From a virus, in IMG/VR virus record IMGVR_UViG_3300027793_000299, positions 1 through 22,557 of that record: a stretch of DNA of 22,557 bases. One strand, 5' to 3'. This document shows positions 8,053 through 16,355 of the stretch, piece by piece. Under the pieces are notes generated by a model, which ran no database searches, was not told where the DNA came from, and saw only the letters and a program-made list of their open reading frames with translations. The first letter of the stretch is position 1. The number at the start of each line of letters is the position of its first letter. Position numbers and translations under genes: made by a program.

Positions 8053-9377
8053 CACCAGCCTCCCGGCAGTTGCGCCGCAAAGTCGCCCGCGATCACCCTC
8101 CGGCGGTTATCCACAGCCTCGCCAGAGTTATCCACATCCAAGTTTGGGTCATCGCCGACAAAACGCAAGCCCGGGGGCGCTTCCGGCACCACCCCCTGCA
8201 CCCGGTCCCACCCGTACAGGGCCAGCGCCAAAGCCATGACGCCGTCATCATGGAACCCGGAGGGGGCCTCATAGCGCACGCCGGTGGCGGTGTACATAAA
8301 CTCAAAGGATTCCAGCTCGCCGATCAGCCACCCGTCCGGAATCGTCAGTTCGGACCCCTGAAACGCCGCTACCAACCGCTGCATCAGGCGCAGTTTGGAT
8401 GGCTGGGTGAAGATATGAGGGGTCACATCCACCCCCATGCCCTGCAGATCGGACACAATGGCATCTCCGACGCCGGTGGCATCGGCCACGATGGGCGTTT
8501 GACCGACGATACCGCGGATTTTCTGCTTGGTTTCGGCCCATGACGCCTGCCATCGGTCCACAAACGCCACTTTTCTATACGCATCCAGCCCAATCACGAC
8601 GGTAAAGTCCATCGACCGCGCCAGATCGACGCCGTAGACGACCGGCTTTTCCGGACTCAGCGGTCCTATGGCCCGGTGGATGGCTTCCAACCCGAAGGGA
8701 TTGGCGCCATCGTCGGTCGGGATGCCCTCGAACTCCTGCGCAAAGACCTCCGGCGGCAGTTCTTTCCGGGCCGATTCGACTTCCTCCGGCGGAATATACG
8801 GGTTGTCCAGCGTCTTGGCGCGGAAGCTGGCCCAGTTGGGCTCGTTCGGGTCGTTTCCCCGGTTGAACAAGACGACAAACCCGTGCCGGCGCCCTCGGGG
8901 CGTGCCGAGAAACAGCCCACCGCCGGACAAATCCACCAGCGTGGGCCGGATCGCCCGCTGCCAGAGGTCCAGCAGGTCGGGCACGATCCCCGCCTCGTCG
9001 ATGATTGCCAGCTTGTATTTGCGCCCAAGGCCGGGATCCGGGGTATCCATCGTCCACATCTCGATCACCCCGCCCGTCACCAGCTCGATCCGGCGCTCCT
9101 GATCATTCGACCGGGCAATCACCGGCTTGAGGCGCTGCAGCAGCTCCCGCCAGACCTCCAGCACGTACTTGTACGTCGGCGCAAACCAGCCTACCGGATG
9201 CCCCGCCAACGCCGCGTCACAGGCTTCCCGGACACCCAGCGCCGTCTTCCCGAACCGGCGCCCACACATCACCACCTTGAACCGGGCCGGGTGCATCACG
9301 ATCTCCTGCTGCCCCGGATGCCGCCGGGCCAGCACGACCTGGACCTCCCCGCCTGACGGTTTCGCCTTTGCCGGCAT
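8052..9377 (-). CDS. terL: Terminase large subunit
   Basis: A 441-residue packaging motor: the N-terminal ATPase drives DNA into the prohead and the C-terminal nuclease cuts concatemers. Visible motifs: Walker A CGRRFGKT (38-45), Walker B LAIIDE (123-128), then an RNase-H-fold nuclease with acidic residues D251 (VYGVDLARS), D299 (PIVADATG) and D377/D378 (FHDDG). Motifs and length are complete. The ATG at 9377 has a GAGAGG site six bases before it. Upstream lies an AT-rich palindromic stretch that may hold its promoter. It ends overlapping the next gene. Confidence 0.95.
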   Translation of the reverse strand: MPAKAKPSGGEVQVVLARRHPGQQEIVMHPARFKVVMCGRRFGKTALGVREACDAALAGHPVGWFAPTYKYVLEVWRELLQRLKPVIARSNDQERRIELVTGGVIEMWTMDTPDPGLGRKYKLAIIDEAGIVPDLLDLWQRAIRPTLVDLSGGGLFLGTPRGRRHGFVVLFNRGNDPNEPNWASFRAKTLDNPYIPPEEVESARKELPPEVFAQEFEGIPTDDGANPFGLEAIHRAIGPLSPEKPVVYGVDLARSMDFTVVIGLDAYRKVAFVDRWQASWAETKQKIRGIVGQTPIVADATGVGDAIVSDLQGMGVDVTPHIFTQPSKLRLMQRLVAAFQGSELTIPDGWLIGELESFEFMYTATGVRYEAPSGFHDDGVMALALALYGWDRVQGVVPEAPPGLRFVGDDPNLDVDNSGEAVDNRRRVIAGDFAAQLPGGW

Positions 9378-9404
9378 ACGTCCTCTCGTAGTCGCGTTCT
9401 CTGA

Positions 9405-9452
9405 GTCTACACGCGTATACGTCTAGTATACTCTATTAACTAGTTATCGTTT
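9405..9452 (-). promoter_or_regulatory. AT-rich palindrome cluster upstream of terL
   Basis: In an otherwise GC-rich genome this short stretch is mostly A and T and holds three perfect palindromes: CGTATACG (9414-9421), AGTATACT (9425-9432) and TAACTAGTTA (9437-9446). AGTATACT provides a TATACT box on either strand; for terL transcription no good -35 lies 17 bases upstream (CAAACG), so an activator bound at the adjacent dyads would be needed. Alternatively the stretch is a DNA-unwinding element beside the dyads. Both readings are inferences. Confidence 0.45.
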
Positions 9453-9611
9453 GGGTGACTCCTGTGTCAGGGGTGACACTGTAGTCACCCCCAAGAAACC
9501 CCGAAGAACAGCCTCGGGGTTCCTTGGTCTGTTTTCTTTTTGCGCGAGGTGTTTGGGCATATTGCGCAGAAGTGATTGGCGTTCAACGCGTTTACTCGTT
9601 TCACGCGTCAA
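9444..9611 (-). CDS. Possible 55-codon basic protein between terS and terL
   Basis: An open frame starting with TTG at 9611 that overlaps the terS stop as TTGA, the same arrangement as the ATGA and GTGA joints elsewhere. An ATG at 9560 would give 38 residues. The peptide is basic and polar (SKRVERQSLLRN, KENRPRNPEAVLRGF, ending VSPLTQESPKR). It fills most of the terS-terL gap. Against it: no clear ribosome site, and the frame contains both the dyad block and the plus-strand hairpin. The ending resembles the linker of the initiator (ESPLTPQS), which follows from the shared DNA block. Function unknown. Confidence 0.35.
   Translation of the reverse strand: MTRETSKRVERQSLLRNMPKHLAQKENRPRNPEAVLRGFLGVTTVSPLTQESPKR
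9453..9491. repeat. GTGAC dyad block, copy B (operator or iterons)
   Basis: Contains GTGAC-N6-GTCAGGGGTGAC (9455-9477), overlapping a perfect inverted repeat GGGGTGAC-ACTGTA-GTCACCCC (9470-9491). The same block, including the same 18-base spacing between GTGAC words, occurs inside the initiator gene at 20443-20465. Both copies are also preceded by TCGTTTGGGTGAC (9447-9459 and 20388-20400). A site for one DNA-binding protein, possibly the phage initiator, is inferred. Confidence 0.6.
9491..9540 (+). terminator. Plus-strand intrinsic terminator-like hairpin
   Basis: A 14-pair stem with one mismatch (CCAAGAAACCCCGA at 9491-9504 against 9514-9527), a nine-base loop and then TCTGTTTTCTTTTT on the plus strand. 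On the minus strand no U tract follows, so termination would act on rightward transcription. No rightward gene ends here; it may block antisense transcription into terS or end a short RNA crossing the dyads. Confidence 0.55.
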
Positions 9612-10129
9612 CTTATTTCACCGTTTCCTGGCGCTAGCATCGGTGTAACGATCTGCGCGACCAGCATACTGCTCACTTCGGCGCTGACCCTCCGGGTCAT
9701 TTCTTCCATGGGCAGTTTTCTTCCCGGCGCCTCCTCCTCCACCACCTTGACTTGTAGCGTCTGGGCGCCTTGATGCTCCACCGTCTGGCGCTCCCCGTAC
9801 TCCGCCGGATTAGCCTTCGCCGCCGCCCACTTCAGCGTGTCGATTAGCAACCGATCCGCGGCGCTGGAATGATTCGTCGTCTCCCGCGCCACCTGGATTG
9901 CCTCCTCCGCCAGCGCCGCCGCCATCAGCTTCTTCGCCCGCTGATACCCCTCCAGCCACTCCGGACGCTCATCCACCCAGCGCCGCACCGTCCCGTGCGA
10001 CACGCCTACCTCCAGCGCCTTCACCGCCTCCTTGAGCGTCTTCCCCTCCGCCATCGCGCCTAACACCGCCAGCACCGTCTCCTGCTTGCTGTCCTTTTTT
10101 TGCTCTTCCTTTTGCGTTCGCCGCGCCAT
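9608..10129 (-). CDS. terS: Terminase small subunit
   Basis: A 173-residue protein that would recognise phage DNA and regulate the large subunit. The basic N-terminus is followed by a helix-turn-helix (about 31-52, TLKEAVKALEVGVSHGTVRRWV), then long helices with the pattern ERPEWLEGYQRAKK ... DTLKWAAAKANPAEYGE, typical of the Sf6/Bam-type small terminases. The C-terminal part (about 115-173) is variable and likely binds the large subunit. Its ATG has a strong site AGGAGGAG five bases upstream. A 20-base direct repeat pair and a G-tract hairpin lie upstream and may belong to its control or to the packaging site. Confidence 0.85.
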   Translation of the reverse strand: MARRTQKEEQKKDSKQETVLAVLGAMAEGKTLKEAVKALEVGVSHGTVRRWVDERPEWLEGYQRAKKLMAAALAEEAIQVARETTNHSSAADRLLIDTLKWAAAKANPAEYGERQTVEHQGAQTLQVKVVEEEAPGRKLPMEEMTRRVSAEVSSMLVAQIVTPMLAPGNGEIS

Positions 10130-10141
10130 CCGCTCCTCCTA

Positions 10142-10225
10142 CGTTGAGTTGTACCACGCGCCCCATGCGCTGAGGCTACACCGCGCCAGCCACCCGCGCT
10201 AGCTGCGTTGACTTGTACCACGTGC
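10142..10225 (-). repeat. Pair of 20-bp direct repeats upstream of terS
   Basis: CGTTGAGTTGTACCACGCGC (10142-10161) and CGTTGACTTGTACCACGTGC (10206-10225) match at 18 of 20 positions and are 64 bases apart. I see no other copy in the window. Both precede terS on the minus strand, where they read GTGGTACAA(C/G)TCAACG. They could be binding sites of a phage regulator, phage-specific promoters, or terminase recognition sites. Confidence 0.55.
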
Positions 10226-10253
10226 GCACTGGCCGGATGGAGGTGGTGCAGCA

Positions 10254-10300
10254 ATCCACCGGACTGCGTCCGGTGGATACCCCCCCCTCCCCCCCCCCTA
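10254..10300. other. Perfect hairpin next to a long G tract
   Basis: Bases 10254-10263 and 10269-10278 form a perfect ten-pair inverted repeat around CTGCG. Directly beside it the minus strand carries ten G, one A and eight G (10280-10298), then TTTTTATTA on its upstream side. The G runs could fold into a quadruplex. The exact lengths of such homopolymers are prone to sequencing error. Confidence 0.6.
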
Positions 10301-10356
10301 ATAAAAAGACGCGCGTTCTTCATCCTTTCGCGGCTCCCAGCCTCGGCTCGGCTCGC

Positions 10357-10574
10357 TTGCCAACGTTTGCCAGCGTCCACCGTCCGTTTGCCAGCGTTGC
10401 CAGCGGTTGCCAGCGAACCAGCCCGCCGAGGGCGCTCGGCGCTATCAAACGGACTCGCGCACGCCCGGGAGCCCCTCGGCCGGGATGGAGAGCGCCACCG
10501 TTCGCCAGCAAGCCAAGCCGTCCACGCGCCAGCCGCGCCACCGATCGCCAACCCGGCGCCCCCGACGTTTGCCA
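10357..10574 (+). repeat. TTTGCCAGCG repeats, left cluster
   Basis: TTGCCA occurs at 10357, 10367, 10388, 10397 and 10407, five times in 56 bases with mostly conserved flanks (TTTGCCAGCG), and once more at 10569. All are in the same orientation. No gene is convincing here. Spacings of 9, 10, 10 and 21 bases would place sites on one helical face, as expected for cooperative protein binding. Confidence 0.6.
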
Positions 10575-10640
10575 GTCCCCGGCCGGCGCTGGCCATGGCA
10601 TCCGGCGGCATCCGGAGGGATCCGGAGGCGCCCGGGCCGT

Positions 10641-10662
10641 CACCTGGTGAACACCTGGTGAA
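10641..10662. repeat. Two tandem copies of CACCTGGTGAA
   Basis: An 11-base unit repeated without gap. Each unit contains CACC-N-GGTG, a small dyad. The pair lies about 85 bases upstream of the -35 box of the plus-strand promoter and could be an operator; the idea rests on position only. Confidence 0.45.
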
Positions 10663-10746
10663 CGGATCCGGCCACCTCCTGGACGATCGGACCCGGTGCC
10701 ATTGACTCGAGGCGCCTCAACTTTCGAGGGAGGCGAAACATTGTGC

Positions 10747-10776
10747 TTGACAAGGCACCCGGCACTTCGCTAAGAT
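10747..10776 (+). promoter_or_regulatory. Sigma70-type promoter for the plus-strand operon
   Basis: A perfect -35 box TTGACA (10747-10752), an 18-base spacer and a -10 box TAAGAT (10771-10776). Transcription would begin near 10783, about 48 bases before the first start codon. It is the best housekeeping-type promoter I see in the window and points only at the opposed operon. Confidence 0.7.
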
Positions 10777-10780
10777 AGGG

Positions 10781-10806
10781 GGCGCCCGGGACTGGCCCGG
10801 TGCGCC
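10781..10806 (+). promoter_or_regulatory. GC-rich hairpin at the mRNA 5' end
   Basis: GGCGCCCGGG (10781-10790) can pair with CCCGGTGCGCC (10796-10806), with one bulged base and an ACTGG loop. It would lie at the very start of the predicted transcript, upstream of the AGGAG ribosome site. A stabilising 5' stem is the simplest reading. Confidence 0.4.
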
Positions 10807-10830
10807 AACCTTCAGCAGGAGCCCCCGCCG

Positions 10831-11106
10831 ATGATCTACACCGCACGGCCCAATCCGAGCACCGACTGGACGTTTGGCGATGTATGCCAGATGGTCCGCG
10901 CCGGCGCGAAGCTGGTTCGCTACTCCTTGACCGCTGGCCGGGTCGGCTTTGCGTACAACAGCACCGAGGCAACGGTGCCGGCCGACTACCTGAACCGGAT
11001 GATTGCATCCGGCGCCATCATGCTGGAATCCCGGAACGGTGGCGACCCGGCGGTCTACGTTTGCCCGATCATCTACACCGCCGCCAACCTTGAGGTGGCC
11101 CAATGA
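10831..11106 (+). CDS. Hypothetical protein, first gene of plus operon
   Basis: A 91-residue protein opening the plus-strand operon. It starts MIYTARPNPSTDWTFGDVC, has a mixed alpha/beta look (AKLVRYSLTAGRVGFAYNST) and ends with hydrophobic strands (AVYVCPIIYTAANLEVAQ). No family recognised. The ATG has AGGAG ten bases upstream and lies about 48 bases from the predicted transcription start. It overlaps the next gene as ATGA. Composition is visibly richer in CCGG and GGCGCC than the minus-strand genes, as for the whole operon. Confidence 0.75.
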   Translation: MIYTARPNPSTDWTFGDVCQMVRAGAKLVRYSLTAGRVGFAYNSTEATVPADYLNRMIASGAIMLESRNGGDPAVYVCPIIYTAANLEVAQ

Positions 11107-11363
11107 TCTACCGCTCGATGCCCACCGCCGCCGACGCCCACCGGGCGATCGCGGCCGCCGCCCGCAACCTTTCATGGGACCGTGAAGACGGCGCCGTTTT
11201 CATGACGGTTGACGGCGCTTGGCTGGCGTTTCTCGATGCGCTCACCGTGGACGCTGCCGTCCGGGACGGCTGGACGCTGGACGAACTGAACGAGGAACTC
11301 ACCGCCGCCCGCCCCGAGGCGGTGGACGTGAACGCCATTCTCGCCGAGGGATGGACCGAATGA
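11103..11363 (+). CDS. Hypothetical acidic protein
   Basis: An 86-residue protein coupled by ATGA overlaps to both neighbours. It is acidic and mostly helical (AADAHRAIAAAARNLSWD, ALTVDAAVRDGWTLDELNEELTAA). A motif of type DGWTLDELNEEL recurs in small phage proteins but I cannot name a family. Its tight coupling to the AAA+ ATPase gene suggests it is made with the ATPase, perhaps as an accessory factor. Confidence 0.7.
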   Translation: MIYRSMPTAADAHRAIAAAARNLSWDREDGAVFMTVDGAWLAFLDALTVDAAVRDGWTLDELNEELTAARPEAVDVNAILAEGWTE

Positions 11364-12742
11364 CCCTTGACCGCTACCCTCTCGAAACGCTGGCCGGGTT
11401 GACCCCCGGCCGGCAGGTCAAACTTGGCCCGGCCATCCCCGACGCCCGGGACCTGATGACCTACACCCCGGCCGAGGAGGTCCGGGACGTTCTGAAGGCG
11501 CACGGCTACACCGGGACGATCGACCAAGTATTGACCCGGGACGTTTCCCGGTTCCCCGTCACCATCCCCGAAGGGACGCGCGGCATCGTCGAAGGCGTGG
11601 ACGCTGACGGCCGCTGGGCCATTGTCGCGTTCGTTTGGAAGACCCCGAAGTCCGGCAAGGTCACCGCCGCGATGGTGCAGGTCGAGCCGGCGCACCTTGT
11701 CAATCATCGTGGTGCCCCGCCGCTGCCCGGGATGCCGCTTCCCGGCACGGCCACCACGTCCACCACGTCCACCACAACCGAGCCCCCCGCCATGCTGCAA
11801 ACCTTGACCGCTACCCCGCCCGCCCCCGCCGCCCCGGCGCCGTCTCTCGGCGCCATGGACGCCCTCCTCAACGCCGTGGTGGACGCCCGAGTCGGCGCCC
11901 GGATTGCGGCGCTGGAGGCCGAACTTGCCAGCCGGCCGACCGGCGCCCCCACGGTCCGAGTCTCCATCTCCGGACTGCCCGAGGTGCAGCTCGAAGGCAA
12001 GGCGCATACCCTACTTCTGGAGGCGCTGCGCTGGGCGGCTAGTCGCCGGCGCAACGGGATGCGGTTCAACATTGCGCTGGTCGGCGACGCCGGCACCGGC
12101 AAGTCCACGCTAGCGGAACAGGTGGCCGAGGCGCTGGGACTCCGCTTCCATCCCTTCAGCTGTTCCGGTGGCGTGGCCGAGTCGAAGCTGTTCGGCCGGA
12201 TGACGCCGAACCTAAACACGGGCGAAGAAGTGTACCGGGCGTCAGAGCTGGTGGACTACTTCCGGAACGGCGGGGTCTTCCTGCTCGACGAAATGGACGG
12301 ACTCGACGCGAACGTCCTCACCGCCGCGAACGGGATGTTCGAGGCCAAGCGCTGGGCCGCGCCGAGCGGTGAGGTGATCGAGCGCCACCCGGACTTCATC
12401 CTGTTCAGCGCCATGAACACCTACGGCACCGGCGCCAGCCGACTCTACACCGGCCGGTCGCAGTTGGACGCTGCGTCGCTGGACCGCTGGGTTGTGCTCG
12501 ATTGCGATTACGACGCCGAGCTGGAACGGTCCCTCTGTTCGGTCCCGGCGATCGTGGACACGTTCCACGGGATCCGCGCCAAAGTCCGGAGTCTGGGGCT
12601 CCGCCGCTGGGTCACCGGCCGCATGATCGAGCGGGCCGAGGTGGCGCACGTTTGCCACGGCGCCACCGTCACGGACGCCGTCCGGGCGCAACTCTCCGGA
12701 TGGACCGACGCGGACCTGAAGGCCGTTGGGGTGGCGTCATGA
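11360..12742 (+). CDS. MoxR/CobS-like AAA+ ATPase
   Basis: A 460-residue ATPase. Residues 60-115 hold a small beta domain (EGTRGIVEGVDADGRWAIVAFVW) resembling an SH3/KOW-type fold. A Thr/Pro/Ala-rich linker follows (118-165), then a short helix. The AAA+ core has Walker A GDAGTGKST (242-250), Walker B FLLDEMD (307-313), a sensor-1 Asn (N353, FSAMNT) and likely finger arginines (R366, R376). The order and the FRNGGVFLLDEMD / YTGRSQLDAASLDRW segments match the MoxR branch (CobS, CbbQ, NirQ, RavA, GvpN), whose members remodel a target with a VWA-domain partner. Such a partner-like gene follows directly. The start at 11360 overlaps the previous stop; an ATG nine bases earlier is possible. A role in cobalamin synthesis is unlikely. 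Confidence 0.88.
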   Translation: MTLDRYPLETLAGLTPGRQVKLGPAIPDARDLMTYTPAEEVRDVLKAHGYTGTIDQVLTRDVSRFPVTIPEGTRGIVEGVDADGRWAIVAFVWKTPKSGKVTAAMVQVEPAHLVNHRGAPPLPGMPLPGTATTSTTSTTTEPPAMLQTLTATPPAPAAPAPSLGAMDALLNAVVDARVGARIAALEAELASRPTGAPTVRVSISGLPEVQLEGKAHTLLLEALRWAASRRRNGMRFNIALVGDAGTGKSTLAEQVAEALGLRFHPFSCSGGVAESKLFGRMTPNLNTGEEVYRASELVDYFRNGGVFLLDEMDGLDANVLTAANGMFEAKRWAAPSGEVIERHPDFILFSAMNTYGTGASRLYTGRSQLDAASLDRWVVLDCDYDAELERSLCSVPAIVDTFHGIRAKVRSLGLRRWVTGRMIERAEVAHVCHGATVTDAVRAQLSGWTDADLKAVGVAS

Positions 12743-13626
12743 ACCGGACCGTTCACGCCGTCAACGATGCGCTAAAGCTCACCACGACGCGCCTTGACGT
12801 GGCCACGCTGGCCACCCTGAGCGCGGCCGACGCCCCGGAGTGCAACCGGGCCGGATTCACCCGGCAGGGTCGCGGGATGGGCGGCAGCTGGACCGGCTGG
12901 CTGGGCAGCATCGAGGAGGCCCGCCAGCTGTTCGCGGCGGGCTGGCAGGCCGGCGCCGACCGGGCCGAGGAGCTCCGGGACCAACTGGCCGGCGCCATCC
13001 CGGCCGGCACCATCACCCGCCGGCGCCGCATCACGGGCGACGAAGGCGAGGAGCTCCGGTTGGACGCCGCGCTTGCCGGCCAGTGGGAAACGGCATGGAC
13101 CCGCCGCGCCCCGGTGCGGGTCGATGACCCGGCCGTCATCAGCCTGTCGGCCGGATGGATGGCGAGCGCTGGCGTCGAACACGAACAGCTGATCTGGAAT
13201 GCGCTGCAGGCCATCGTCCTCACCGACGCGCTGGAAGCGGCCGGCTACCGGGTCGAGTTGCGGGCCATTGATGGCACCGTGACCTACAAGCGCCACGGCT
13301 ACACGCAGCTCGTGGATATGATGCTGAAGCGGGCCGAGGAGCCGCTACGCGCCGACTTGATTGCGGCCGTGATCGGTCACGCTGGCGTCTACCGCTCCCT
13401 TGGATTCCAAGCGCTCTGGACCGTCCCGAAGGAACAGCAGGAGTCAATGGGCAAGTGCTTGAAGCCGGACGGCATCCGCAAGGCCGTGACCGATGCCGCC
13501 GGCGCCGGCATGATCCCGCCCGTATCCTACGTACTCCCCCGGGCCGACAATGCCGCCACCGCGCGGCAGAACTTGCGCGACGCGGTCCGGGCGCTGTTTC
13601 CGGATCGCATTGAGGCGGCCGCATGA
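12739..13626 (+). CDS. DUF7192-like, degenerate VWA partner of the ATPase
   Basis: A 295-residue protein coupled to the ATPase gene by an ATGA overlap. The N-terminal part (45-85) has SWTGWLGSIEEARQLFAAGW, a pattern I associate with DUF7192 proteins of phages, which occur beside MoxR-type ATPases. Residues about 132-285 look like an alpha/beta Rossmann-type (VWA-like) domain: strand VISLSAGWMASA, helix with ALQAIVLTDALEAAGY, strand RVELRAI, then later strands and helices. The metal site DxSxS of true VWA domains is not visible, so metal binding may be lost. Likely the adaptor or substrate-recognition partner of the ATPase. The family assignment is from memory of sequence pattern and could be wrong in name; the coupling to an AAA+ gene is clear. 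Confidence 0.7.
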   Translation: MNRTVHAVNDALKLTTTRLDVATLATLSAADAPECNRAGFTRQGRGMGGSWTGWLGSIEEARQLFAAGWQAGADRAEELRDQLAGAIPAGTITRRRRITGDEGEELRLDAALAGQWETAWTRRAPVRVDDPAVISLSAGWMASAGVEHEQLIWNALQAIVLTDALEAAGYRVELRAIDGTVTYKRHGYTQLVDMMLKRAEEPLRADLIAAVIGHAGVYRSLGFQALWTVPKEQQESMGKCLKPDGIRKAVTDAAGAGMIPPVSYVLPRADNAATARQNLRDAVRALFPDRIEAAA

Positions 13627-13748
13627 CCGCCCCGACCCGCAACCCCGGGGGCCAGGACGCGCCCCCGGCGCCGCCCCCGCCGCGCAACTGTCCGGCCTGC
13701 TGGCTCCCCGTCACCGTCTGCACCTGCCATGAGGATAGCGACGAATGA
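13623..13748 (+). CDS. Small Cys-rich protein
   Basis: A 41-residue protein linked to both neighbours by ATGA overlaps. The first half is Pro/Ala-rich and probably disordered; the second half has CPAC (23-26) and CTCH (33-36), enough ligands for a small zinc knuckle. The two metal-binding pairs and the double coupling argue that it is real despite its size. Function unknown; it might be an adaptor for the ATPase pair. Confidence 0.6.
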   Translation: MTAPTRNPGGQDAPPAPPPPRNCPACWLPVTVCTCHEDSDE

Positions 13749-13840
13749 GCCGGCGCCCGGAGCCTATCCCCGACTGGTTGGTATGCGCCACGATTGCTGC
13801 CCTCTGCTACACCCTCACCCGCTGCACCCTCACCCACTAG
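13745..13840 (+). CDS. Small single-pass membrane protein
   Basis: A 31-residue peptide (start MSRRPEPIPD) with a hydrophobic stretch WLVCATIAALCYTLT (11-25) flanked by a polar, basic N-terminus, so one membrane segment is likely. Three Cys lie in or near it. It overlaps the preceding gene as ATGA and ends ten bases before the next start. If real, it would place part of this operon's products at the membrane. Confidence 0.55.
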   Translation: MSRRPEPIPDWLVCATIAALCYTLTRCTLTH

Positions 13841-13850
13841 GAGCCCCGCC

Positions 13851-14249
13851 ATGCTCAACGCCTTTCTGATCGACACGACCGACGCCCGCGCCGTTGACCA
13901 CCCGCTGACGCTGGAGGCCATGCAGGCCACCGTGGGCGGCTACATCGAGCCGGTGTTCACCATCGACTCCCCGACGCGCCCCGGCTACGCCCTCACCGGC
14001 TACGTCAACGATTCCGGCCTAATCGACGGGCTCCCGTTCACTTGCTTCCTCGACGGCGCCAGCAACCCGCTGGCCGGCCCGCTGCTGATTTGCGGGTTGC
14101 GCTACGAGGATGGCGAGACGGCCGAGCTCACCGCCGAGGAGCTCGATTGGATCGACAAGCGCACCCGACTGGTGATGATGGCCGGCCGCATCACCCCGGC
14201 AGGCGAGCGCGACGCGCACGCCCTGCACGCGCTGGACCTGAGCAAGTAA
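13851..14249 (+). CDS. DUF3846-like protein
   Basis: A 132-residue protein with the typical DUF3846 sequence pattern: LTLEAMQATVGGYIEPV (20-36), then a loop ending in SGLIDGLPFT, then NPLAGPLLICGL followed by a C-terminal LTAEELDWI. The family is common in phages, plasmids and mobile elements; its function is not established, although it often sits near anti-restriction or host-takeover genes. The ATG has GGAG nine bases upstream. This is the last gene before the terminator and the only one not overlapping its neighbour. Confidence 0.8.
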   Translation: MLNAFLIDTTDARAVDHPLTLEAMQATVGGYIEPVFTIDSPTRPGYALTGYVNDSGLIDGLPFTCFLDGASNPLAGPLLICGLRYEDGETAELTAEELDWIDKRTRLVMMAGRITPAGERDAHALHALDLSK

Positions 14250-14264
14250 CCCCACTAGCTTCCT

Positions 14265-14337
14265 GGGTGCGGCCCTCTGGCGGGGGCTCCCGCACCCACC
14301 GCAACCCTCAGCTGCCACGCCCGGCGGCTGGGGGTTG
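14265..14337 (+). terminator. Double hairpin terminator of the plus operon
   Basis: First stem: GGGTGCGG (14265-14272) with CCGCACCC (14290-14297). Second stem: 14 pairs from 14303-14316 with 14323-14336 around ACGCCC, extended by C14302-G14337. Its two non-Watson-Crick pairs are U-G in plus-strand RNA but would be A-C mismatches in minus-strand RNA, so the hairpin is suited to the plus transcript. The tail GUGUGCGUUCC is only weakly U-rich. It lies where the two operons converge. Confidence 0.65.
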
Positions 14338-14685
14338 TGTGCGTTCCGGCGCCCGGCAGTGGGCAGATTTATTGCCAGTGGGCGGAAGTTTGCCAGCCCA
14401 CACCGTTCGCCATGCGGCCAGCCGCGCCACCCGGGCAGCGGCCCGCTTTGCCAGTGCGCCCCGGGATTGCCACCCTCCAGGACGAACCGGCCCCGGATAC
14501 AACGACAACCGGACGCCGTTGACAAAGACAAACGCCGCCGGCAGGTCCGGCCGGGTGGACAGGAGCGCCCGGCAATACTCCGCCGCGCACCCGGCGTCCG
14601 CCGCTTGCCAGCTGGCAAACGCTTGAGCGGGTCCGCCGGGCGGGTCCACCACCGCGACCCACCACGGCCGCCCGTCGGCCGTCAC
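14308..14685 (-). CDS. GTG-started hypothetical protein after the wHTH gene
   Basis: A 125-residue frame whose GTG start overlaps the upstream stop as GTGA. The first 70 residues look like real protein: RPWWVAVVDPPGGPAQAFASW, then AEYCRALLSTRPDLPAAFVFVNGVRLSLYPG, a compact alpha/beta pattern. The rest is Arg/Ala-rich and less convincing. It runs into the plus-strand terminator. Its composition resembles the plus-strand operon more than the early genes. No family recognised. The lack of an ATG or a distinct ribosome site lowers confidence; translational coupling would remove that need. Confidence 0.5.
   Translation of the reverse strand: MTADGRPWWVAVVDPPGGPAQAFASWQAADAGCAAEYCRALLSTRPDLPAAFVFVNGVRLSLYPGPVRPGGWQSRGALAKRAAARVARLAAWRTVWAGKLPPTGNKSAHCRAPERTQPPAAGRGS
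14372..14618. repeat. TTTGCCAG repeats, right cluster, with a perfect palindrome
   Basis: TTGCCA occurs at 14372, 14390, 14448, 14467 and 14605. The last is part of a perfect 14-bp palindrome TTGCCAGCTGGCAA (14605-14618), suggesting that TTGCCAG is a half-site. The same words form the cluster at 10357-10574 on the other side of the plus-strand operon. Confidence 0.5.
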
Positions 14686-15104
14686 GCCCCGCGCCGTAGC
14701 AGGCCGGAGCGGCTCGCGACGGAGCGGCTCGCGGTCTCGGAGCCGGAGCGGCTCGCGGCAGCCCCCGCGCTGGTCAGACCCAGCGCCCTGGCTCGAATCG
14801 GGTTGATCCACGGCACGTTGCGCTGCTTGTTCTCCTCCACCTCTTCCTTCGAGGGGGGTCGGAAGTTGTTCAGGTGCCCTTCCCCGTTGAGCAGCCGGTG
14901 GCCTTTCTCGGTGATCTGCCATGTCTGCTTGGCGATGCGCTGGGTGTAGCCTTTCGTGGTCAGCCGGCAGGCGGCGGAGCGGAGGGTCTCCAGCTTGGTC
15001 TCCGGGTGGAGCGTGCCAAGCTGGTCGAGGGTCAGCCCCTCCGGGTGATCGGCCAAGGCCCGGAGGATGCGGAGGGCGGAGGTGCTGTAGGTCTTCTCAG
15101 GCAT
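14682..15104 (-). CDS. Winged-helix protein with repetitive tail
   Basis: A 140-residue protein. Residues 8-75 form a winged helix-turn-helix (SALRILRALADHPEGLTLDQLGTL, then a recognition helix LETLRSAACRLTTKGY, then wing TWQITEKGHRLL). A polar segment KEEVEENKQRNVPWINPIRARAL follows, then a Ser/Arg/Ala tail (ASRSGSETASRSVASRSG) encoded by a triplicated 14-mer. It is probably a transcriptional regulator, perhaps of the early operon or of the neighbouring plus-strand unit. No clear ribosome site; it overlaps the previous gene by eight bases, so re-initiation is likely. Confidence 0.75.
   Translation of the reverse strand: MPEKTYSTSALRILRALADHPEGLTLDQLGTLHPETKLETLRSAACRLTTKGYTQRIAKQTWQITEKGHRLLNGEGHLNNFRPPSKEEVEENKQRNVPWINPIRARALGLTSAGAAASRSGSETASRSVASRSGLLRRGA
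14705..14757. repeat. Three copies of CGGAGCGGCTCGCG
   Basis: Exact 14-mers at 14705, 14720 and 14744, offset by 15 and 24 bases, both multiples of three, so the reading frame of the winged-helix gene is kept. They encode its Ser/Arg tail. Slippage or recombination could change the copy number without breaking the gene. Confidence 0.8.
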
Positions 15105-15390
15105 GGGGTGGGGTGGTGGGGAGGTCGTATTGGCCGGTGGCTTGAGCGGTGGCGGTGAGTTCGTCGAGTGGCGGCTTTGGGGTCCGACTGTACGGGCTCA
15201 GGATGTAGTGCAGGGGACAGTTGGGTGCGATCCACCATGCGCGGGTTGGCTGTCCCGGTGGGCTGTACTTGAGGATCACACCCTGCCCACGGGCGTTGTC
15301 GCCAGCCGCGCAGGTGCAGCCGTTGGCAATGGCTTCCGGGCTGCCGGGTTCGCGTTCACGATTCATGAACGGTGAACGGTCGGTGGTCAT
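15097..15390 (-). CDS. Small hypothetical phage protein
   Basis: A 97-residue protein with the conserved-looking core GSPEAIANGCTCAAGDNARGQG followed by AWWIAPNCPLHY. Three Cys (two in CTC, one in NCPLH) and a His could bind a metal. The segment resembles short proteins in phage early regions that I recall only as hypothetical. The ATG at 15390 overlaps the upstream stop as ATGA; the open frame further up is shadow. Confidence 0.7.
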   Translation of the reverse strand: MTTDRSPFMNREREPGSPEAIANGCTCAAGDNARGQGVILKYSPPGQPTRAWWIAPNCPLHYILSPYSRTPKPPLDELTATAQATGQYDLPTTPPHA

Positions 15391-15617
15391 GCGCTGGCCT
15401 CCCGTTCGGCGATGGTGAGTGCGGCGTTGAGCATGGCTGGGACATCGCCCGTCCGAGACCATGCGGTCATGGCTCTGGCCAGCACGTCGAGGTCCGGCTT
15501 CCGCAGCATGGCAAGGATGGCCCGGAGCCGGACAATTTCATCGGCCATCCGGTCGCTTGACCCGCCCGGAACGGCGGGCGTGGCATAGAACTCTTTTAAC
15601 ACCTCATCCCTCGTCAT
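15387..15617 (-). CDS. Helical protein, tandem family copy 3
   Basis: A 76-residue helical protein. Its second half (RLRAILAMLRKPDLDVLARAM ... ALTIAEREASA) matches the pattern of the two genes upstream: ILAxLRxP, a spacer, then Ala-rich AEREASA. It is the shortest copy and lacks the longer N-terminal part. The ATG at 15617 lies inside the end of the previous gene. Function unknown. Confidence 0.7.
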   Translation of the reverse strand: MTRDEVLKEFYATPAVPGGSSDRMADEIVRLRAILAMLRKPDLDVLARAMTAWSRTGDVPAMLNAALTIAEREASA

Positions 15618-15903
15618 TGGCCACCTCCTGTTCCGCTGCGGCCACGGCGGCTTCGATGATCTCGTCGATGTCCTCTCCGATGATCGGGTCAGTCACTTTC
15701 CGGGCGTTGAGCGCATCATGCACCGCCTCCCGCATCTCTCGGCTCGGCTCCCGCAACGCGGCGAGGATGCGCCATGTACGCCACAGCTCATGGCGCAACG
15801 CTTGTTCGTGCGATGCCGGTCGATCCTTCGCAGGAGCCGTAAACCCCGTGTCGTCATAGAACCGCTTGGCCAGCACTTCATCCTGCTCGGTTACGTCACT
15901 CAT
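15604..15903 (-). CDS. Helical protein, tandem family copy 2
   Basis: A 99-residue protein, mainly helical and acidic. It carries RILAALREPSREMREAVHDAL and the ending IIEAAVAAAEQEVAN, the same two motifs as its neighbours on both sides. An unrelated N-terminus (EQDEVLAKRFYDDTGF) may be its own module. The start overlaps the previous stop as ATGA. Function unknown; such ILAALREPS proteins recur in phage early regions without known role. Confidence 0.75.
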   Translation of the reverse strand: MSDVTEQDEVLAKRFYDDTGFTAPAKDRPASHEQALRHELWRTWRILAALREPSREMREAVHDALNARKVTDPIIGEDIDEIIEAAVAAAEQEVANDEG

Positions 15904-16355
15904 GCGCTCACCTCCTGCTCTGCTGCCGCGACGGCGACACGGATCGCTTTCAGCGCCTCATCAAAGCACGACAGGTTGTAGATCTGCTCCCGCAAGGCGT
16001 CCACCATCAGGTCGCTTGGATTGCGCAGCGCGGCGAGGATGTCACGGGCACGTTCGTATTCCTTCTCGTACATCACGCTCATGCCAAAATGCGAATCACT
16101 GGTGCGCCGTTCGCGCTCTAGCAGCAACTCTGCGGTCATACGCGCCGTGTCGTGTTCATCCAACGCCTTCCGCAGCCGGTCGATCTCCTGCACCAGCACT
16201 AGCCCTTCGCCAGCGGCCAGCGTCCAGCCTTTCCGGGCCGTGGCAATGATGCGGTCCAGCCGGTCGCCGTAGCCGGCGCGGTGGTTGCCGAAGTTCCCGT
16301 CAGCCTTCGCGTCGGTCGGATCGGGGACGCGGCAGTCGGTCGGGGCGCTGCTCAT
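15900..16355 (-). CDS. Helical protein, tandem family copy 1
   Basis: A 151-residue protein. The N-terminal 40 residues are polar; residues 40-90 are likely coiled coil (VQEIDRLRKALDEHDTARMTAELLLERERR); the C-terminus has DILAALRNPSDLMVDALREQI and AIRVAVAAAEQEVSA, matching copies 2 and 3. The ATG at 16355 overlaps the upstream stop as ATGA; a longer frame upstream is shadow. Function unknown. Confidence 0.75.
   Translation of the reverse strand: MSSAPTDCRVPDPTDAKADGNFGNHRAGYGDRLDRIIATARKGWTLAAGEGLVLVQEIDRLRKALDEHDTARMTAELLLERERRTSDSHFGMSVMYEKEYERARDILAALRNPSDLMVDALREQIYNLSCFDEALKAIRVAVAAAEQEVSA

Follow-up and report, generated by a model that had tools for sequence, protein, structure and literature searches.

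An exchangeable accessory operon in an uncultivated tailed phage with a MoxR-type AAA+ ATPase and a predicted DUF7192 adaptor

The window analysed here, the whole 22,557-base stretch of the virus record IMGVR_UViG_3300027793_000299, is a tailed-phage fragment from bacterial viruses of an uncultivated group. Two modules lie on its minus strand; the left one carries the major capsid protein (MCP), portal, terL, and terS genes, and the right one encodes a RusA-like resolvase, a DnaB-like primase/helicase, a replication initiator, and an exonuclease. Between them, seven open reading frames (ORFs; 10831–14249) run on the plus strand, opposed to the flanking phage modules just as a first-pass annotation of this DNA had described, and ATGA overlaps join five of their six junctions. 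Comparison with relatives shows this opposed unit to be self-contained and exchangeable, best read as an accessory operon, the contents of which are swapped between phages while the slot stays fixed, and that each type of AAA ATPase found there goes with its own partner protein. We consider it reasonably probable that the operon is early and host-directed, and that in the window it furnishes a MoxR-type AAA+ ring together with a DUF7192 adaptor.

Relatives were taken as the best 80 of 308 terL matches (79 loci), and the genes of the window were mapped on 83 loci with iterated profiles added. In many contigs that cover the stretch, an opposed AAA gene of one of two types occupies the corresponding position, on the upstream side of terS and diverging from it. 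Type 1, an AAA gene with DUF7192 (and DUF3846), is found in the window, L002, L003, L035, L040/L044, and L047, with L005 assigned through a partial AAA gene. Type 2, a distant AAA (21–22% identical) with a protein bearing a DMSGSM or DFSGSM metal-site motif, is found in L041/L042, L048, L030, and L021–L023. The partner linkage holds throughout: DUF7192 is encoded in all six distinct type 1 contigs that reach its place (L005 ends before it), and the VWA protein in all four distinct type 2 contigs in which the partner was read (L042, L048, L030, and L023). An AAA gene adjoining DUF7192 was also present in three phages outside the terL set (L089, L091, and L107). Other phages hold opposed genes without AAA in the same slot, namely ArdC (L016), GP88 (L031 and L058; GP88 also adjoins the AAA gene of L023), a putative GP88-like protein (L038), an amidoligase with a glutamine amidotransferase (L009), or small ORFs (L043 and L052/L053). 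For these readings, the upstream side of terS is covered by only some 4.1 kb in L009 and 3.4 kb in L016, and L005, L030, and L045 end within the unit.

The history of the unit departs from that of the phages carrying it. On a terL tree of 51 rows, in which L038 was not classed, the three unit types require seven changes against a minimum of two, their labels being clustered but mixed. The terL proteins of L035 and L042 are 95% identical and their AAA proteins 29%; L023 shares 85% terL identity with the window and has an AAA of the other type. In approximately unbiased (AU) tests, the AAA grouping of the window, L002, L003, and L035 was rejected on terL (p 5e-64), and the pairing of L035 with L042 was rejected on AAA (p 1e-4). 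At the DNA level, L035 and L042 align at 78–96% identity up to L035:5163 and again from L035:9407, with no match between; in that interval L040 and L042 share only a 92-base piece, which comprises the 3′ hairpin and terminator. The first-pass annotation had viewed the unit as structured like cargo acquired by transfer; that the unit is exchangeable is supported by the other cargo in the slot, the conflict between AAA and terL trees, and the unrelated contents of L035 and L042. It had proposed comparing relatives for precise presence or absence of the block; in them an opposed unit recurs at the same place with other contents. Conservation in all relatives with core composition, which it had set against transfer, was found for slot and orientation and for a core-like GC content at third codon positions (GC3), but not for the contents.

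Composition, the other sign of transfer that had been proposed, does not serve as one. The enrichment is real, with 24.0 CCGG sites per kb in the unit against 14.9 in the left and 10.2 in the right flank, and 4.5 GGCGCC sites per kb against 1.7 and 1.3. By observed/expected ratio, however, the terminase side is higher: CCGG stands at 1.91–2.07 in overlapping intervals across the neighbouring positions 8101–10800 and at 1.69 in the unit, and GGCGCC at 3.3–3.9 and 2.6, respectively. Since the excess reaches into the terminase region, it is no mark of foreign origin for the unit. GC3 is core-like, at 0.86 in the unit and 0.83 and 0.82 in the flanks; the difference is larger at second codon positions (0.52 against 0.48 and 0.45), that is, in amino acid make-up. 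With the enrichment continuing into the neighbouring region and a core-like GC3, composition was rejected as proof of foreign origin. In L035, the CCGG ratio of the unit (1.20) is unlike that of its own flanks (0.08 and 0.47), which fits transfer in that phage. As an observation apart, GATC has observed/expected ratios of 2.27 and 2.38 in the flanks of the window and a lower one, 1.48, in the unit.

The unit, its ends, and its two neighbours are laid out in the window as follows.

10747–10776, plus strand: promoter-like site TTGACA-N18-TAAGAT, with 10/12 matches, kept in the aligned L005, L002, and L003
10816–10830, plus strand: leader end CAGGAGCCCCCGCCG, resembling a ribosome-binding site, kept in the alignment although the gene behind it differs
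10831–11106, plus strand: gene A, 91 amino acids (aa), no family; first-cassette gene, undetected in L002, L003, and L005
11103–11363, plus strand: gene B, 86 aa, no family; directly behind the leader in L005, undetected in L002 and L003
11360–12742, plus strand: gene C, 460 aa; an AAA+ ATPase of the MoxR/CobS/Midasin kind that has an N-terminal region of its own
12739–13626, plus strand: gene D, 295 aa, DUF7192 (PF23822, 3e-20), predicted VWA-fold partner of C
13623–13748, plus strand: gene E, 41 aa; conserved in L002 and L003
13745–13840, plus strand: gene F, 31 aa; conserved in L002 and L003
13851–14249, plus strand: gene G, 132 aa, DUF3846 (PF12957, 9.2e-14)
14264–14298, plus strand: first hairpin, conserved, in which UGGCGGGG is invariant; model R1 covers 14264–14295
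14300–14339, plus strand: second hairpin, strong and terminator-like (−33.8 kcal/mol, z −5.8 for 14300–14345)
9608–10129, minus strand: left neighbour, terminase small subunit (terS; PF20901, 2.2e-21), divergent from the unit
14682–15104, minus strand: right neighbour, small regulator-like protein (phrog_2440, 1.5e-6), convergent with the unit

Genes A, B, E, and F have no family match in Pfam or PHROG, nor A and B in NCBIfam. In L003, L035, L040, L044, and L047, gene G accompanies both C and D. From its sequence, gene C is identified as a MoxR-type AAA+ ATPase. It matches Pfam AAA_5 at 2.1e-17 (63.9 bits against a cut-off of 22) and phrog_249, labelled ‘porphyrin biosynthesis’, at 5.6e-39; its Walker A and B residues (G247 K248 and D310 E311) are invariant in nine relatives. 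The solved structures nearest in sequence are Midasin (5e-26), CobS (1.8e-8), and NorQ (8.5e-5), and all ten solved-structure matches are Midasin, CobS, NorQ, or CbbQ/NorQ-type, that is, VWA-dependent AAA proteins. Against the CobS model TIGR01650, gene C scores 34.3 bits with a cut-off of 558.55.

For gene D, DUF7192 is the sole Pfam match, and there is no NCBIfam match. A tblastn search against annotated phages gave no match at 1e-5, a search of one literature collection for the term ‘DUF7192’ found no paper, and additional relatives for a deeper alignment were few. The first structural model of D had a predicted local distance difference test score (pLDDT) of 54.6, and a second, covering residues 47–295 with nine sequences, reached a pLDDT of 65.5 and a predicted template modelling score (pTM) of 0.68; the models have a strand-helix-strand-strand-helix order. 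With the second model, the five best Foldseek matches were NorD VWA domains of NorQ–NorD complexes (best E 2.1e-4). The eight best rows of a VIA fold search were Rea1/MDN1-MIDAS and NorD (Z 7.0–7.9), followed by integrin, von Willebrand, complement, collagen VI, Ku, pilus-tip, and similar domains, which we take to share the VWA fold. DUF7192 is thus predicted, at the level of modelled structure, to be a VWA-fold adaptor of a MoxR-type AAA ATPase. The C/D pair is favoured because two independent routes, sequence for C and fold for D, converge on one set of two partner families.

At its 5′ end, the unit begins with the TTGACA-N18-TAAGAT site that the first-pass annotation had named as its promoter, the first start codon following 84 bases past the start of the site. 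By itself the site is weak, since a scan of 9000–16000 gave two sites where 0.8 are expected; it gains weight from being conserved at the equivalent position in L002, L003, and L005, and as a prediction the promoter stands. Behind this promoter and a leader that ends in AGGAGCCCCCGCC, both conserved in these three, the next gene varies: L005 has B there, L002 a different small ORF, L003 the AAA gene itself, and the window A followed by B. Promoter-like scores of at least 9 were found in 13 of 18 upstream regions on the unit strand as compared to 6 of 18 on the other strand, with 0.97 expected from shuffles; the 18 regions are partly related and so not independent. A search of viral contigs for the promoter pattern matched only three contigs already known. 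That the unit is expressed early, and by the polymerase of the host, is plausible. Beside the leader, we observed that genes A and B both begin with ATGATCTAC (10831–10839 and 11103–11111), and that the L005 leader joins B at that string; gene A may have been acquired via short homology there.

At the 3′ end, the double hairpin at 14264–14339 folds at −59.4 kcal/mol on the plus strand (z −4.3, 0/200 shuffles as good) and at −48.6 kcal/mol on the minus strand (z −0.95, 32/200 as good), in agreement with the plus-strand specificity noted earlier; it is kept in L003. The second hairpin has no good U tract in the window; several relatives have U-rich tails, with a U run after the next hairpin in L040, L047, L042, L043, and L048. 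The hairpin with invariant UGGCGGGG, with a terminator behind it, was present, whatever the cargo, in 10 of 13 distinct contigs whose unit end was judged present (the window, L003, L035, L040, L047, L042, L048, L023, L016, and L043), its member motif having been picked by eye. In its alignment, 92.1% of cells form standard pairs, three pairs are changed on both sides, and 0/500 shuffles reached the covariation score; in a register control, a slide by +2 columns gave four double-sided pair changes as compared to three in the true register, with paired cells at 68.3% as compared to 92.1%. L048 fits in a shifted register only, and L043 folded alone favours a different structure. A model of the hairpin returned 13 matches at E < 0.05, of which 10 were its own training rows and three were near-copies (L041, L044, and L022). 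One outside match was found in G015 (E 0.0024); it sits at the edge of the contig and precedes a terminator-like hairpin. An Rfam search over 9400–15500 gave no match to the 3′ part with an E value of 1 or below. The hairpin could represent a new small RNA hairpin family and might itself act in the exchange or in RNA control.

Four side observations concern the surroundings of the unit. Just upstream of terS, and oriented like it, is the motif GTACNNGTCAA, which occupies 10206–10219 (minus strand) in the window and recurs in 13 of the 16 relatives listed; a one-mismatch copy of a longer GTACNNGTCAA form is present at 10142–10155, and the window has three matches where 1.2 are expected. The motif is a possible late promoter or operator. 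A gene resembling metallo-phosphoesterases lies between terS and terL in L031, L043, L053, and L016 (family search: L053). The right neighbour (14682–15104, minus strand) shares a tail like W-I/V-NPIRARALGL with proteins of L048, L031, L040, L047, and L016, while the front parts differ. The replication module of L043 and L058 has the reverse orientation of that in the window, pointing the same way as the opposed unit.

Taken together, a working model for the operon emerges. A sigma-70-type promoter would let the host RNA polymerase transcribe the unit upon infection, separately from the late genes, and the conserved hairpin and terminator would stop the transcript ahead of the convergent right module. 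Different cargo would be swapped in by recombination within the conserved flanks. In the window, gene D would dock on the ring of gene C and direct the remodelling of a host protein complex, the most likely aim being take-over or counter-defence. Passages of PMC13036017 describe how the VWA domain of NorQD reaches into the pore of the AAA ring with a finger and rotates; by analogy, D may act likewise on the pore of C. The anti-restriction family ArdC, exchanged into the same slot in L016, speaks for a host-directed role of the unit, which resembles an interchangeable tool holder directed at the host. More tentatively, the locus could be a standing exchange slot, bounded by a host-type promoter on one side and by the UGGCGGGG hairpin family and terminator on the other, in which whole operons are swapped and DUF7192 is a metal-site-less VWA adaptor that lets the MoxR ring attack a host complex.

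Several observations count against an early, host-directed operon with a DUF7192 adaptor. Of the 18 upstream regions, 5 have no promoter-like site at score 9. The UGGCGGGG hairpin was not found in L031, L053, or L058. No known counter-defence family matches genes A, B, C, D, or G, and PADLOC returned a weak AAA match only. The second model of D is of middling confidence, its best Foldseek matches superpose with TM scores of 0.26–0.29 and root mean square deviations of 13–16 Å, and a Z under 8 for the D fold can reflect a common arrangement. The metal-ion-dependent adhesion site (MIDAS) motif DxSxS was not seen at the end of strand 1 of D in alignments A1 and A4. A sequence proof of DUF7192 as a VWA domain failed: hhalign against VWA partners gave a probability of 0.1%, and the DUF7192 sequence matched no solved structure.

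Other readings of the AAA/VWA-like pair have published precedents. Passages of PMC7824862 propose the MoxR-vWA pairs of jumbo phages and Acidianus two-tailed virus as assembly chaperones, and the unit adjoins packaging genes; yet the AAA gene does not track the terL tree, and it was found in 11 of 23 records searched (including Hardycor1, at 7.9e-10) and not found in the other 12, among them long contigs with alike terminases (G002, G003, G014, and G016; 38–40 kb). Its absence from such phages, and the dispensability of the pair in near relatives, argue against a general virion-assembly chaperone in this lineage and make that role unlikely here, although a chaperone client in the variable tail is possible. 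The pair could instead be a cobaltochelatase-like CobS/CobT, raising host cobalamin output as an auxiliary metabolic unit. Passages of PMC8651126 propose viral cobST as cobalamin genes, and both the phrog_249 label and the weak TIGR01650 match (34 bits) point that way; that score is nevertheless far below its cut-off of 558, DUF7192 lacks an NCBIfam match, the nearest solved AAA is Midasin with CobS second, and ribonucleotide reductase (PF02867) was not found in any of 18 contigs. We regard the cobalamin reading as very unlikely.

Two further explanations concern the unit as a whole. An ordinary, vertically inherited early operon that merely diverges fast would agree with a GC3 near that of the core and with the AAA gene in close relatives with a readable slot (L002, L003, and L005, L009 excepted). 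It is quite unlikely given the tree conflict and the unrelated cargo between conserved flanks, which contradict vertical inheritance for the lineage; for the near clade of the window itself, vertical inheritance could hold. A true moron, prophage-expressed cargo that benefits the host, as the first-pass annotation had in part suggested, would share the unit's predicted promoter and terminator, opposed strand, and exchangeability. In this prophage sense the label is not supported: integrase (PF00589) and resolvase (PF00239) were not found in 18 contigs searched, many of them fragments, and a terL scan of genome contigs gave two short binned contigs only, one of them from a Verrucomicrobia bin and matching terL at 66%, too weak for naming a host. 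We hold a true moron to be highly improbable, although, the contigs being mostly fragments, the lineage may still be temperate.

If the exchangeable, host-directed operon proves right, its two conserved ends are a handle to collect host-directed genes of uncultivated phages without prior knowledge, and DUF7192, a family of unknown function, gains a testable role as an AAA adaptor. NorQ–NorD, CbbQ–CbbO, CobS–CobT, and Rea1/Midasin are like gene C in AAA type, and here too the partner gene is adjacent, with a predicted fold pointing to VWA; unlike in those systems, the partner belongs to DUF7192, in which no metal-site motif is visible and no similarity in sequence can be detected, and the pair is phage-borne inside an exchangeable unit. 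Viral pairs (Hardycor1, HCTV-2/HHTV-2, jumbo phages, and cyanophage cobST) likewise set an AAA beside a vWA protein, which DUF7192 replaces here, while sister phages have the classical vWA type or no pair. The Hardycor1 pair, described as AAA and vWA in passages of PMC7911831, lies in this distant terL relative on the strand opposite to terL. Phage morons likewise have their own promoter and terminator (predicted here) and exchangeable cargo, whereas this unit has a fixed slot, a core-like GC3, and, in the 18 largely fragmentary contigs, no sign of lysogeny. Finally, archaeal viruses carry anti-defence genes behind conserved early promoters, according to PMC11065993, and also combine kept regulatory sequence with changing genes; the viruses and the promoter differ, and anti-defence is a candidate function for the operon described here.

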